Assembly: GCA_016212735.1 (NCBI GenBank)
Contig: JACRDZ010000083.1
Span: 1 to 8,095, forward strand
From: Candidatus Firestoneibacteriota bacterium
Lineage (GTDB): Bacteria > JACRDZ01
Length of the DNA: 8,095 nucleotides
Direction of reading: 5' to 3'
Part shown: in pieces, positions 3,243 to 8,069 of the stretch
Layout: each line of letters starts with the position of its first letter
Position numbering within the stretch: position 1 is the stretch's first letter
Made by a program: the position numbers and the translations under genes
The notes under the pieces: model-generated
What the model was told of the DNA's origin: nothing
The model's database searches: none
What the model saw: only the letters and a program-made list of their open reading frames with translations

Positions 3243-4284
3243 TTGCTCTTTTCTCCATTTCTGCTAATTTCATATCTTCTTCTATCATTAGCATTACTAA
3301 TGCTTCAAAATCTACTTTTAGTTTCCAGCCTAAATTTTTTCTTGCTTTTGTTGAATCACCTAAAAGTAAATCAACTTCTGCAGGTCTAAAATATTTAGAA
3401 TCGATTTCAATTAATACTTTCCCTGTTTTTTTATCTATCCCTTTTTCATTTTCATCTTTCCCCTGCCATTTAATTGGCATATCTAAAGAATTAAAAACTT
3501 TTTCCGTAAATTCCCTTACTGAATGTGTTTCACCTGTTGCAATAACATAATCTTCCGCATGTTCCTGCTGCAGCATAAGCCACATAGCTTCAACATAATC
3601 TCCGGCAAAACCCCAATCACGTTTTGCTTCAAGATTTCCAAGATAAAGTTTTGACTGTAATCCAAGTTTTATTCTTGTTGCAGCGCGAGTTATTTTTCTT
3701 GTAACAAAAGTTTCACCGCGACGTGGAGATTCATGATTAAATAAAATACCATTACATGCAAACATATTATAACTTTCTCTATAATTAACGGTAATATAAT
3801 ATGCGTATGCTTTTGCGCATGCGTACGGTGATCTTGGATAAAAAGGAGTTGTTTCTTTTTGAGGAGTTTCTATAACTTTGCCATATAGCTCAGAAGATGA
3901 TGCCTGATAAAACTTTGTTTTCAATTCTGTCTCTCTAATTCCCTCTAATATTCTAATTGTACCAAGTGCATCTACTTCGCCTGTGTATTCTGGAATATCA
4001 AAAGATACTCTTACATGACTTTGAGCTCCAAGATTGTATATTTCATCTGGTTTAATATCGCGCAAAAGTTTATTTAAAGAACTCGCATCATTCAAATCCC
4101 CATAGTGCAGTGTAAGACGTGCCCCTCTTTCATGTGGATCATGATAAATATTATTTATTCTTCCTGTATTAAATGATGAGGATCTTCTGATAATACCATG
4201 TACTTCATATTTCTTACTTAATAATAGTTCTGCAAGATATGAACCATCCTGGCCGGTAATACCTGTGATTAAAGCTTTTTTCAT
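3235..4284 (-). CDS. gmd: GDP-mannose 4,6-dehydratase
   Basis: The enzyme converts GDP-D-mannose to GDP-4-keto-6-deoxy-D-mannose, the first committed step to GDP-L-fucose, in the cytoplasm with bound NADP. At 349 residues it is a little shorter than the E. coli enzyme. The cofactor motif is G8-I-T-G11-Q-D-G14, with the NADP-selecting RRSSSFNT at 33-40. The active site is ASSSELYG (128-135) plus Y154 and K158 in SPYACAK. S130 stands where E. coli has Thr132, a conservative change, and E132 matches Glu134. [18 protein letters not shown] (181-198) is nearly invariant in the family, and [14 protein letters not shown] (222-235) also matches. An AGGGGG tract (4295-4300) 10 bases upstream supports the start. 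It is the first gene after the 355-bp repeat-filled spacer and overlaps fcl by 8 bp. GDP-mannose must come from genes outside the window. Confidence 0.98.
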
Positions 4285-4378
4285 ATAATATAATCCCCCT
4301 GTAATTTAAATACGTTCTAGGTTCTTGGCTGAAGGCCGTATGTGTTAAGTTAAGGAATTTATTTTAGTAAATTAGCTT

Positions 4379-4408
4379 TATATAGCAAAGAGTTATCGTT
4401 TATTGCAA
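4379..4408 (-). promoter_or_regulatory. Candidate sigma-70-type promoter for gmd-fcl-ligase
   Basis: On the minus strand TTGCAA (4403-4408) and TATATA (4379-4384) are separated by 18 bases, each matching 4 of 6 consensus positions. Transcription would start near 4372, leaving a leader of about 88 bases before gmd that still includes the left outer arm of the repeat. AT-rich DNA makes such matches common, so this is only a candidate. The 355-bp gap after rfbB makes some promoter here reasonable. Confidence 0.25.
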
Positions 4409-4439
4409 ATTACTAATTTTAATGAAGATATATATAAAC

Positions 4440-4481
4440 TGTAAAATGGGTACTGTAAAATGAAAAATGTAAAATGATTAG
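4440..4481 (+). repeat. Degenerate heptamer array, left inner arm of the spacer element
   Basis: Six consecutive 7-bp units start with TG on the plus strand. The first, third and fifth are identical TGTAAAA; the others are TGGGTAC, TGAAAAA and TGATTAG. The word GTAAAATG therefore recurs exactly every 14 bases (4441, 4455, 4469). Confidence 0.7.
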
Positions 4482-4523
4482 GAAATCCGTTCTTACTGCT
4501 AAAGCTAAAGAACTGATTTTAAA

Positions 4524-4551
4524 TTTTACATTATTCATTTTACAGTTTACA
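4524..4551 (-). repeat. Degenerate heptamer array, right inner arm of the spacer element
   Basis: Read on the minus strand, four consecutive 7-bp units occur: TGTAAAC, TGTAAAA, then TGAATAA and TGTAAAA. It is the same unit family as 4440-4481 but on the opposite strand, so the two arrays form the inner stem of the nested inverted repeat. Confidence 0.7.
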
Positions 4552-4639
4552 GTTGTTTTTTATTGGTTAAATTATACTAATTCAATATTCTTAACTTAAC
4601 ACCTATGCCATTGACCCCAGACCCTAGAACCTGCTCAGC

Positions 4640-5683
4640 TTAGAGCTTTCCCAATTTTTCAAGATACCATCTTATTGTCTTCTCTATTCCACTGTTAAAA
4701 TTCTCTTCTGCTTTCCATCCAAGTTCTGTTTCAATCTGTGTTGCATCTATTGCATATCTTCTATCCTGTCCTGGTCTATCTTTAACAAATGTTATCAATT
4801 CTTTATATGATGATATTTTTTTATTTTTAATCGTTTTATTTGTTTTAATAGGATAGAGTTCATCTAATATTTCACAAATTTTTTTTGCTATATTTAAATT
4901 TATTTTTTCGTTTTTTCCACCTATATTATATGTTTCTCCAGTTATTCCTTTATGAAATGCTAAATCTATTCCTTTGCAATGATCTAAAACATATAACCAA
5001 TCTCTAATATTTTTACCATCACCATATATCGGGATTGATTCACCTTTCAAAGCAGTTCTAATAATAGTTGGGATAAGTTTTTCCTGATGCTGTTTTGGTC
5101 CGTAATTATTTGAACAATTCGTAATTATTGTATCCAGACCATAAGTGTGGTGATAACTTCTAACAAGCATATCACTGGAAGCTTTACTTGCAGAATATGG
5201 ACTGCTTGGCTGATATGGAGTTTCTTCAATAAATAATCCTGTTTCACCAAGTGTCCCATAAACTTCATCAGTTGATATTTGATGAAATCTCGAACCTTTA
5301 TAAATATCTTTGTATTTAAATGGCTCTTTTAACCATAATTCTCGTGCAGTATCAATCAATACAAATGTTCCAATTACATTTGTTTGTATAAAAATTCCGG
5401 GGTCTTCTATGGAATTATCAACATGTGATTCAGCAGCAAAATTTATAACTCCTTTAACATCATATTCTTTAAAAATATTCTTAACAAATTCTCTATTACA
5501 GATATCACCTTTAATAAACTTATATCTGAAATGGTTCTCTATTTCAGTTAAATTACCCATATTACCTGCATAAGTCAATTTATCTAGATTTATTATGAAA
5601 TAATTCGGATATTTTTCTATAAAATATGGGATAAAATTACTGCCGATAAAGCCAGCACAACCTGTAACCAGGACTGATTTCAT
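4640..5683 (-). CDS. rfbB: dTDP-glucose 4,6-dehydratase
   Basis: This is the second step of dTDP-L-rhamnose synthesis: dTDP-glucose is dehydrated to dTDP-4-keto-6-deoxyglucose using bound NAD. I start it at 5683, giving 347 residues (MKSVLVTG...). AGGAG lies just upstream, and this ATG overlaps the rfbD stop as ATGA (4 bp). An in-frame ATG 39 bp further upstream (5722) would only add 13 residues encoded within rfbD and lacks this support. The cofactor motif is G8-x-x-G11-x-x-G14. NFAAESHVDNSI (81-92), STDEVYG (137-143, with T138, D139 and E140 of the dehydratase triad), Y163-xxx-K167 and NNYGP (192-196) are all present. RPGQDRRY (303-310) is a family signature near the end. It is last in the rhamnose block and translationally coupled to rfbD. 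Confidence 0.97.
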   Translation of the reverse strand: MKSVLVTGCAGFIGSNFIPYFIEKYPNYFIINLDKLTYAGNMGNLTEIENHFRYKFIKGDICNREFVKNIFKEYDVKGVINFAAESHVDNSIEDPGIFIQTNVIGTFVLIDTARELWLKEPFKYKDIYKGSRFHQISTDEVYGTLGETGLFIEETPYQPSSPYSASKASSDMLVRSYHHTYGLDTIITNCSNNYGPKQHQEKLIPTIIRTALKGESIPIYGDGKNIRDWLYVLDHCKGIDLAFHKGITGETYNIGGKNEKINLNIAKKICEILDELYPIKTNKTIKNKKISSYKELITFVKDRPGQDRRYAIDATQIETELGWKAEENFNSGIEKTIRWYLEKLGKL

Positions 5684-6561
5684 TTTTCTCTCCTGACACA
5701 CTCTTTCAGCGAATCCCTCCAATAAGGTATTTTTATATTCAGCTCTTTTTTTATTTTTCCTTTATCCAATACACTGTAATGTGGTCTTTTTGCCGGAGTT
5801 GGATAGTCTTTTGTTTCAATTGGATTTATTTCACATTTTAACTCTGAAAATTCAACAATTGCTTTTGCAAAATCATACCAGCTTGCAACACCTTCATTAG
5901 AATAATTATATATTTTTATTTCATTCGGTCCAAAAACATTCTGTTTTTCAGTAATTATTAATAAAATAATTTCAGCTAAATCTCTTGCATATGTCGGAGT
6001 ACCTATTTGATCATATATAATATTTAAACTGCTTTTCTCTTTTGCCAGTTTTTGTATTGTTTTTACAAAATTCTGTCCATAGAAAGAATACAGCCATGAT
6101 GTTCTTAAGATAATTGATGTAACTTGACAGGATATTATTTCATTCTCACCTTTTAGTTTTGTTTTACCATATACACCTTGAGGATTTGTTTTGCTGTCTT
6201 CTTTATATGGGTTGCAACTTTTTCCATCAAATACATAATCAGTTGAAATATGAATTAGTTTAATATTTTGTTTTTTTGATATTTCTGCTAAACTCTTAAC
6301 TGAATATATATTTATCTTTTCAGCGTTATATATATCACTTTCTGATTTATCAACTGCTGTATAAGCAGCGCAATTAACAATATAATCAATTTTGTTTAAG
6401 CTAAAATATTTATTAAGTTTTTCAATATTGGTTAAATCAAGTTCTGCTATATCAGTAAATATAAAATTGAATTTTTTTAAATCAGAGTTATTGTTTTTAA
6501 CAGAATTAAATATTTCGCTTCCTAGTTGACCATTTGCTCCAGTAATTAAAATATTTTCCAT
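5680..6561 (-). CDS. rfbD: dTDP-4-dehydrorhamnose reductase
   Basis: This is the last step to dTDP-L-rhamnose: NAD(P)H-dependent reduction of dTDP-4-keto-L-rhamnose in the cytoplasm. At 293 residues it is the usual length. The N-terminal motif is G8-A-N-G11-Q-L-G14, followed by NCAAYTAVD (63-71), STDYVFDG (106-113), the catalytic Y131-xxx-K135 (YGKTK) and RTSWLY (153-158), all standard for the family. KRPHYSVLD (258-266) is the substrate-side signature. The upstream sequence is the purine-rich GAAGGCA heptamer array ending in AAGAGAG about 7 bases before the ATG, so the repeat may now supply the ribosome site. The stop codon overlaps the rfbB start by 4 bp. Confidence 0.97.
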   Translation of the reverse strand: MENILITGANGQLGSEIFNSVKNNNSDLKKFNFIFTDIAELDLTNIEKLNKYFSLNKIDYIVNCAAYTAVDKSESDIYNAEKINIYSVKSLAEISKKQNIKLIHISTDYVFDGKSCNPYKEDSKTNPQGVYGKTKLKGENEIISCQVTSIILRTSWLYSFYGQNFVKTIQKLAKEKSSLNIIYDQIGTPTYARDLAEIILLIITEKQNVFGPNEIKIYNYSNEGVASWYDFAKAIVEFSELKCEINPIETKDYPTPAKRPHYSVLDKGKIKKELNIKIPYWRDSLKECVRREK

Positions 6562-6574
6562 TTAGTACTCTCTT

Positions 6575-6623
6575 TGCCTTCTGCCTTCTGCCTTCTGCCT
6601 TCTGCCTTCAGCCTTCTGCCTTC
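6575..6623. repeat. Seven-copy 7-bp tandem repeat between rfbC and rfbD
   Basis: Seven adjacent heptamers occur, TGCCTTC on the plus strand (GAAGGCA on the minus), with one variant unit AGCCTTC at 6610-6616. The last unit runs into the rfbC stop codon (TGA, 6624-6622). A 5-bp direct repeat AGTAC flanks the array at 6564-6568 and 6624-6628. Seven is not a multiple of three, but because the array begins at the stop codon, copy-number change would alter only the gap to rfbD. Confidence 0.95.
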
Positions 6624-7188
6624 AGTACAAACTATCACTATAATTAAACATTTCTGTATTATATAAATCTGGAAGAATTTTATCTTTTTCTGAAAGAACA
6701 ATATCTTTTTTGTTAATTCGCCAATCTATATTTAGAGTTTTATCACTATAAATAATTCCTCTCTCCGATTCTTTTGAATAGTAATTATCAACTTTATAAT
6801 TTAAAATGCATTCCTCACTTATAACTATAAATCCATGAGCAAATCCTCTTGGAATAAATATCTGTTTTTTATTATTTTCACTGAGTTCAATTGTCACAAA
6901 TTTAGCAAATGTTGGGGACCCTTTTCTAATATCAATGGCAACATCAATTATTTTCCCTTTTATTACTCTGACTAATTTACTTTGAGCAAAAGGTGGAAGT
7001 TGAAAGTGAAGCCCTCTTAGCGAACCGTATTTTGATATTGACTCATTATCTTGAACGAAATTTATTTTCTTAATATTTCTATCAAATAAATCATTTCTAA
7101 AACTTTCAAAAAAAAGCCCTCGTTCATCATCCCAGATTTTTGGCTCTATAATTACTACTTCAGGAATTTCTGTTTTAATAAATTTCAT
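6622..7188 (-). CDS. rfbC: dTDP-4-dehydrorhamnose 3,5-epimerase
   Basis: The enzyme double-epimerises dTDP-4-keto-6-deoxyglucose at C3 and C5, cofactor-free, in a cupin-type beta barrel. At 188 residues it is the normal length. GSLRGLHFQLPP (55-66) carries the catalytic base H61. KLVRVIKGKIIDVAID (71-86) contains the conserved lysine and arginine that bind substrate phosphates. FIPRGFAHGF (111-120), NYKVDNYY (130-137) and TLNIDW (151-156) are family signatures, and LSEKD (165-169) near the end probably holds the aspartate partner of the histidine. The start codon overlaps the rfbA stop by one base (TAATG), with AGAGG 6 bases upstream inside rfbA. The C-terminus ends at the edge of the heptamer array, which supplies part of the TGA stop. 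Confidence 0.97.
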   Translation of the reverse strand: MKFIKTEIPEVVIIEPKIWDDERGLFFESFRNDLFDRNIKKINFVQDNESISKYGSLRGLHFQLPPFAQSKLVRVIKGKIIDVAIDIRKGSPTFAKFVTIELSENNKKQIFIPRGFAHGFIVISEECILNYKVDNYYSKESERGIIYSDKTLNIDWRINKKDIVLSEKDKILPDLYNTEMFNYSDSLY

Positions 7189-8069
7189 TAATAACCTCTT
7201 TTTACTAAATTAGTAAGATATTGTCCATACTGATTCTTTTTCAATGGTTCCGCCAGTTTTAATAAATCATCTTTCGAAATATATTTTAAATTATATGCAA
7301 TTTCTTCAATACAGGCAATTTTTAATCCCTGCCTGTCTTCAATTGCTTTAATAAACATACTGGCATCTGAAAGGCTTTCATGTGTACCTGTATCCAACCA
7401 TGCATAACCTCTCCCCAGAAGTTCAACACGAAGTTTATTATTTTTTAAATATTCTTTGTTTACATCAGTAATTTCGAGTTCCCCTCTTGCAGACGGTTTG
7501 ATTTTTTTAGCTATATTAACCACATTATTATCACAAAAATAAAGACCTGTTATGGCATAATTTGATTTTGGATTTTCAGGTTTTTCCTCTATAGAGATAA
7601 CATTCCCGCAACTGTCAAATTCAGCAACACCATATCTTTCTGGTTCATTAACATAATATCCAAAAACTGTTGCTCCTTTTTTTTCTTTTATATCAAATAC
7701 TGCTTTCATGAGTAATTCAGTTAGACCATGACCATAGAATATATTATCTCCAAGAATAAGACAGACATCATCATTCCCTATAAATTCTCTACCTAAAATA
7801 AATGCTTCAGCAAGTCCATTTGGCGATGGTTGTTCTTTATAAGAGAAACTTAACCCTAGCTGTTTCCCATTTCCTAGAATATCATTGAATCTGGCTAGGT
7901 CAAAAGGGGTAGAAATAATTAGAATTTCTTTAATACCAGCAAGCATTAGAACAGATAAAGGATAATAAATCATTGGTTTATCATAAACTGGTAAAAGTTG
8001 CTTGCAAACAGACAAAGTTATAGGATAAAGCCTCGTTCCGCTGCCACCTGCCAAAATAATACCTTTCAT
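7188..8069 (-). CDS. rfbA: Glucose-1-phosphate thymidylyltransferase
   Basis: The enzyme joins dTTP and alpha-D-glucose-1-phosphate to dTDP-glucose and pyrophosphate; it is the first and usually feedback-inhibited step of the rhamnose pathway. At 293 residues it matches the E. coli enzyme in length. [11 protein letters not shown] (6-16) is the nucleotide-binding loop. LGDNIFYG (105-112) carries a metal-binding aspartate. [18 protein letters not shown] (160-177), [11 protein letters not shown] (194-204) and the C-terminal [14 protein letters not shown] (220-233) are characteristic. An AAAGGGG tract (8083-8089, minus strand) lies 13 bases before the ATG, rather far for a ribosome site, but no closer one is seen. 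It is the first gene of the four-gene rhamnose block. Whether the transcript begins here or further upstream cannot be seen. Confidence 0.98.

Follow-up and report, generated by a model that had tools for sequence, protein, structure and literature searches.

Does the short heptamer array that separates rfbC from rfbD mark an insertion with a 5-bp target-site duplication, as a preliminary description of this DNA proposed, or did it come about in some other way? The window (the whole stretch of DNA analysed, 8,095 nucleotides) carries on its minus strand the gene order rfbA-rfbC-rfbD-rfbB, then gmd, an fcl-like gene and an O-antigen ligase gene (Table 1); the names rfbA, rfbB, gmd and fcl come from reading the translations. 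The best matches of RfbD and RfbC are 63% and 69% identical. For the O-antigen ligase, identity to a protein of Candidatus Desantisbacteria is 67%, and judged from this one protein the lineage of the window is apparently not cyanobacterial. Like the pairs that overlap in Table 1, gmd and fcl overlap, and only 3 bp separate fcl from the ligase. The rfbC-rfbD gap of 60 bp (6562-6621, with the rfbD ATG at 6561) had been singled out as the outlier, which holds for its compact neighbours in the gene block but left unmentioned two other wide gaps, one of 355 bp between rfbB and gmd and one of 66 bp beyond the ligase. Also beyond the ligase, on the minus strand at 174-923, the translation reads as a nucleotidyltransferase-like ORF fused to a HEPN-like part.

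Table 1. Features of the rfbC-rfbD junction and its neighbourhood in the window
Feature	Position	Strand	Basis
rfbC-rfbD heptamer array; seven units, six GAAGGCA, unit 2 GAAGGCT	6575..6623	-	letters, TRF
TGA stop of rfbC; the array begins with its G and A	6622..6624	-	letters
Left GTACT; the TAC inside is the final rfbC codon	6624..6628	-	letters
Right GTACT, then AA and the rfbD ATG	6564..6568	-	letters
AAGAGAG, putative ribosome-binding site 6 nt 5' of the rfbD ATG	6568..6574	-	by reading; inference
rfbC (dTDP-4-dehydrorhamnose 3,5-epimerase), 188 aa	6622..7188	-	
rfbD (dTDP-4-dehydrorhamnose reductase), 293 aa	5680..6561	-	
rfbA-like gene, 1-bp overlap with rfbC	7188..8069	-	name by reading of translation
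rfbB-like gene, ATG at 5683, 4-bp overlap with rfbD	4640..5683	-	name by reading of translation
rfbB-gmd gap, the second with heptads; folds back imperfectly and has period-7 repeats	4285..4639	-	

The array runs from 6623 to 6575 on the minus strand, between two copies of GTACT; its units read GAAGGCW, and it has the top TRF score of the window (91). The present rfbC stop is a TGA made of a T and the GA of array unit 1; at the other end, AAGAGA (6574-6569, minus strand) follows directly after the seventh unit, and 13 nt lead from the array end to the rfbD ATG. Built of seven head-to-tail 7-bp units, the array looks like a new member of the known class of intergenic heptanucleotide repeats, and on the coding strand it overlaps the stop of the upstream gene, a position described for such heptamers in PMC4692102. 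Chance would not produce such an array; for the GTACT pair the excess over chance is not clear.

Arrays of this one heptamer were collected elsewhere, from 23 stretches in viral contigs and at least 108 in genome contigs. Among the matches listed, 154 arrays have at least four units, 133 of them with clean flanks, 114 with unique flanks and 58 with heptad-free flanks, the filter on heptad-like flanks (114 to 58 arrays) being our own choice. For position, 59 of the 154 were usable; the others lie inside an ORF (54), have no ORF on one side (39) or are duplicates (2). The window array is itself counted in both the 58 and the 59. Distances follow a simple ORF rule rather than a gene caller; stop codons being rare or absent in the arrays, frames run through them, and 54 are counted as lying inside an ORF. 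Among the matches listed, 50 of the 59 usable arrays have the closer ORF at the 5' end of their GAAGGCA strand (p 5e-8). In 41 cases the left ORF has its end toward the array, at a median distance of 13 nt and in 33 of them within 50 nt; in the other 18 it has its start there, at a median of 58 nt. From the opposite array end the medians are 174 nt for the 29 start codons and 151.5 nt for the 30 stops, all within the same listed matches. The general property of these arrays is position and polarity: they lie near the upstream gene end. The shared stop of the window recurs in part, with a T before unit 1 giving an in-frame TGA that closes an open frame of 80 or more codons in 10 of the 154 arrays among the matches listed, five of the ten being GAAGGCT arrays, whose TGA follows from their own sequence.

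Nine array sites were searched in relatives, of which L025, L091, L069, L047 and L078 were read or aligned, making six sites with the Symploca junction described below; Symploca L076, L045, Nodosilinea L080 and Nostoc L043 were set aside from the reading. The sites were picked non-randomly, for having several genomes per genus, and duplications were judged by reading rather than by a formal test. On this reading, no target duplication explains the difference at any of the six sites, few of which are clean empty sites. The Paenibacillus array has 15 units past a TAG stop; one relative (G074), 96% identical on the gene side, has fewer than 2 units there and also lacks about 290 bp of the neighbouring spacer, so this site is not a pure unit-number difference. 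Two further relatives have almost no units (G060) or degenerate ones (G087). The Fodinibius array follows CAG as TGA, its GA coming from unit 1, the same composite stop as in the window, and relatives (three shown of eleven, 72-75% identity) read CAG TAG, CAA TAA and CAA TAG. At the stop codon of Okeania L025, one species has GAAGGCA, two have TTAATAA (one with more units) and one has a TCAGCTA-like heptad, a fifth genome being without the left flank; at L091, two species have array and body, and three have other sequence at that point. Because relatives carry differing heptads or other sequence, both Okeania sites read as turnover rather than as clean empty sites.

Differences in unit number at like sites are direct. 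An Okeania AATTCTA array measures 34 bp in one genome and 60 bp in another, with flanks 95-97% identical; in the comparison of Okeania stretches that gave this pair, 12 of 24 heptad arrays (all motifs taken together) could be matched, several of them in poor alignments. The Okeania TTAATAA array is long in one genome and short in another. In IMG/VR, arrays of 5, 3 and 4 units share alike flanks, and arrays of 12 and 7 units have the left flank alike.

The rfbC-rfbD junction itself can be followed into other genomes. An RfbD search of 38 array-bearing genomes gave a match in 34, and 30 loci were fetched, 18 of them with both genes. Compact junctions (-4 to +16 nt) are found at 11 of these 18 loci; the remainder comprise three long adjacent gaps, one ambiguous locus (L150), one non-adjacent pair and two pairs about 1.1 kb apart. 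Each long gap (295, 403 and 565 nt) contains a heptad run, and the best 28-nt stretch per gap keeps period 7 at 21, 21 and 19 of 21 positions. Over the whole gap, the period-7 excess reaches z 9.4 (L149), 5.2 (L143) and 2.3 (L140); period 8 is about equally strong in L149 (0.53) and L140 (0.33), so these two gaps are not purely heptads. In Symploca, strains SIO1C2 and SIO2C1 have a 4-bp ATGA overlap between rfbC and rfbD and SIO2E6 has a 295-nt gap of short repeats, an unpolarised difference. The exact rfbD-start pattern had no match in the genome contigs searched, and of the 24 stretches of viral contigs that matched a pattern for RfbD none was confirmed as a relative. In an alignment of 120 RfbC rows including the window, 21 end earlier, 15 in the same column, 32 one column later and 52 two or more later, which puts the RfbC C-terminal end within the natural range of its relatives. 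By analogy with Symploca and Fodinibius, the proposal that the array was added to a compact junction is plausible; its second part, the 5-bp target duplication, fares worse, as set out below.

We favour, at a probability of roughly one half, a bare array of the STRR/LSSR kind that grew in place at the rfbC stop, with the GTACT pair not a transposition scar. The direct differences in unit number, together with the bare look of the window, Paenibacillus and Fodinibius arrays, argue for growth in place and make a body-less element its main rival. The anatomy, the stop-hugging polarity and the unit-number differences at comparable sites elsewhere are established, and by analogy the rfbC-rfbD junction of the window may have taken the same course. 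The G-rich strand of the array lies on the coding strand, at the point where rfbC stops. From a short heptad seed at the rfbC end, unit duplication and slippage would have built up the array; an rfbC-rfbD junction that had been compact or overlapping would thereby have widened to 60 bp, and the rfbC stop would have become the TGA common to the first unit. The GTACT pair would then be a coincidence or an older local duplication. As a consequence of the array, translation of rfbC and rfbD may have been uncoupled: the two genes would no longer be coupled by overlap, and rfbD would start from its own putative AAGAGAG site. If growth in place is right, relatives should show the junction GTACTAAGAGAGTACTAAATG or other unit numbers. 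Changes in unit number would leave the RfbC and RfbD proteins unaltered. Phase variation by frame change was considered and is out, since by reading the array begins inside the stop codon and ends before the ATG, and unit changes cannot alter either protein.

Two observations run counter to growth in place: the GTACT copies with the exact TAC TAA ATG are the expected outcome of a simple insertion, and many arrays in Okeania, Symploca and Niastella sit in dispersed elements with a fixed body, so that some arrays do travel with elements elsewhere. The window array could be the arrival or remnant of a short dispersed heptad-ended element, inserted at a gene end without target duplication, whose body was lost or never present; we consider this unlikely, if the most serious competitor. 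Its clearest model is Niastella soli L078 (about 4014-4212, some 200 bp), where a TAG is followed by GGCA, 16 GAAGGCA units, a body with complementary GAGAC and GTCTC words, and three GTTTGCC units. Six near-full-length copies (87-97%) occur elsewhere in that genome, and the element is missing at the same stop codon in the eight displayed of nine other genomes, where the genes are separated by a few tens of bases of other sequence. Array plus fixed part also stands at dozens of places in Okeania and Symploca, among the matches listed. The window array has no such fixed body, only 13 nt separating it from the rfbD ATG, and by reading the Paenibacillus and Fodinibius arrays have no Niastella-type body either. 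In Okeania, the fixed body joined to the GAAGGCA arrays is about 110 nt long. REP elements and other non-autonomous palindromic elements lie just after stop codons, and some move without target duplication; the window array resembles REP elements in lying just past a stop codon and differs from them in being neither palindromic nor accompanied by a body.

A further point for such an element comes from within the window, where the rfbB-gmd gap (4285-4639) folds back on itself imperfectly and contains heptads. Its arms of 71 nt match at 70% and the inner arms of 24 nt at 96%, and its period-7 autocorrelation is 0.42 against 0.297 +/- 0.023 for shuffled sequence. Both long gaps of the run from rfbA to the ligase carry heptads; the 66-bp gap beyond the ligase has no period-7 excess (0.36 vs 0.357). 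The rfbB-gmd gap starts just past the rfbB stop and contains TGTAAAA-like period-7 words, with heptad-like words in its outer arms.

The reading proposed at the outset, a single 60-bp insertion of array plus AAGAGA with GTACT as the duplicated target, appears improbable, although its letters are sound. The seven-unit array and 6 more bases do stand between minus-strand GTACT copies at 6628-6624 and 6568-6564, correct to the letter. Taking out one GTACT and the 55 bp leaves TTG TAC TAA ATG, with the RfbC protein the same and its stop TAA instead of the present TGA, and the pre-insertion junction would be GTACTAAATG; a compact rfbC-rfbD junction is, moreover, the commoner state at the loci compared above. 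This ancestor is not unique. Removing the array only (49 bp) gives TTG TAC TAA GAGAGTACTAA ATG, equally good, with the same RfbC and a TAA stop, an 11-nt spacer GAGAGTACTAA and the AAGAGAG before rfbD kept. After array-only removal, a stop at or before the ATG arises with 0.52 of 13-nt spacers drawn from the window; many random spacers thus give a stop too, and the tidy reconstruction is weak evidence.

Judged alone, the window gives the GTACT repeat a p of 0.004-0.02: this GTACT recurs in this 13-nt spacer with p 0.005, and an abutting 5-mer recurs within 6 nt of random flanks with p about 0.019, or 0.09-0.20 with looser edges. Across the 58 heptad-free-flank arrays, among the matches listed, a 5-bp repeat like that at rfbC-rfbD occurs at chance frequency: one array, that of the window, has an abutting 5-mer repeat and none of the other 57 does, where permutation gives a mean of 0.66. 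At slack (2,6), 2 are seen (the window and L060) against 1.63 expected, and with slack (6,6), 3 against 3.22, among the same 58 of the matches listed; L060 has a 6-mer repeat with 2 nt of slack, in a flank that is still heptad-like. The 114 unique-flank arrays of the matches listed show 4 against 1.27 expected for a left copy abutting and a right copy within 6 nt; this excess is carried by flanks with heptad-like words and vanishes once these are set aside and 58 are left. Target duplication is no detectable property of GAAGGCA arrays. The preliminary description had made flanking duplications at other arrays of the same genome a check on the insertion; in the arrays of other genomes, which this result covers, they are lacking.

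Comparable sites point the same way. The six sites read against relatives are without a fitting duplication. In Symploca SIO2E6 a 4-bp GTAT stands at both gap ends, and its removal does not yield the overlap of SIO1C2 and SIO2C1. The sister rfbB-gmd gap has no abutting 5-bp duplication, its 35-nt ends sharing only AAATT, GGGA and CAGG, all offset. As a mechanism, the 5-bp target duplication finds no support, and the GTACT pair is probably due to chance; however tempting, such an insertion scar is not something that these arrays generally have.

Selection could also have kept the array for a regulatory role, through binding of proteins to the RNA, stability of the transcript or adjustment of rfbD translation, but this is very improbable. 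Such roles have been proposed for gene-adjacent heptamer repeats, namely TAACTGA repeats and the hupS-hupL STRR (PMC4679880, PMC2670836), and the array ends 13 nt before rfbD, but the array RNA shows no structure beyond shuffles (z 0.02) and no Rfam family, the region has no terminator and no promoter excess, most usable arrays among the matches listed lie closer to the upstream gene end than to the downstream gene, and one Okeania stop codon bears different heptads across species.

Published heptamer repeats give growth in place a setting. PMC4692102 describes GGGAATC and GGGGAYT intergenic heptamers in Xanthomonas and Nostoc, those downstream of an ORF lying mostly 0-50 bp from the stop on the coding strand, including all the stop-overlapping ones. 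The window array is like these in being G-rich on the coding strand and near or over the upstream stop; length variation, seen at comparable sites elsewhere, would be a further likeness. Unlike them, GAAGGCA has only GG runs and is probably a weaker quadruplex candidate. The array thereby comes under a published rule by which G-rich heptads begin close to the stop of the upstream gene. The cyanobacterial STRR between hupS and hupL, mostly of 7-bp units (PMC2670836), likewise lie between neighbouring genes; there the repeats are reported to be able to form hairpins, whereas the window array shows no structure beyond shuffles and the window lineage is apparently non-cyanobacterial. The TAACTGA direct repeats of Beggiatoaceae (PMC4679880) are also intergenic heptamers, some lying over the upstream stop codon, but mostly stand a few nucleotides upstream of a start codon, unlike GAAGGCA arrays, which mostly hug the upstream stop. 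STRR have served for fingerprinting of Nostoc (PMC5088731). In the small part of the literature matches covered, no paper was evidently on this array.

More tentatively, and against the odds as we judge them, GAAGGCA-type arrays across phyla might reflect a directed addition of heptads at stops that keeps one polarity and leaves no target duplication; in some cases the added heptads would form one end of a short array-body-array element, and the T plus GA stop of the window would be one instance of the process. The same polarity in many groups, together with filled and unfilled states of the rfbC-rfbD junction, makes the origin of bacterial heptad arrays testable via close strains. The Nostoc site L043 (array at 4045-4100) was set aside above because about 15 kb separate its flanks in relatives; in many of the Nostoc genomes listed the two flanks are also oppositely oriented, as if the array marked an inversion breakpoint.
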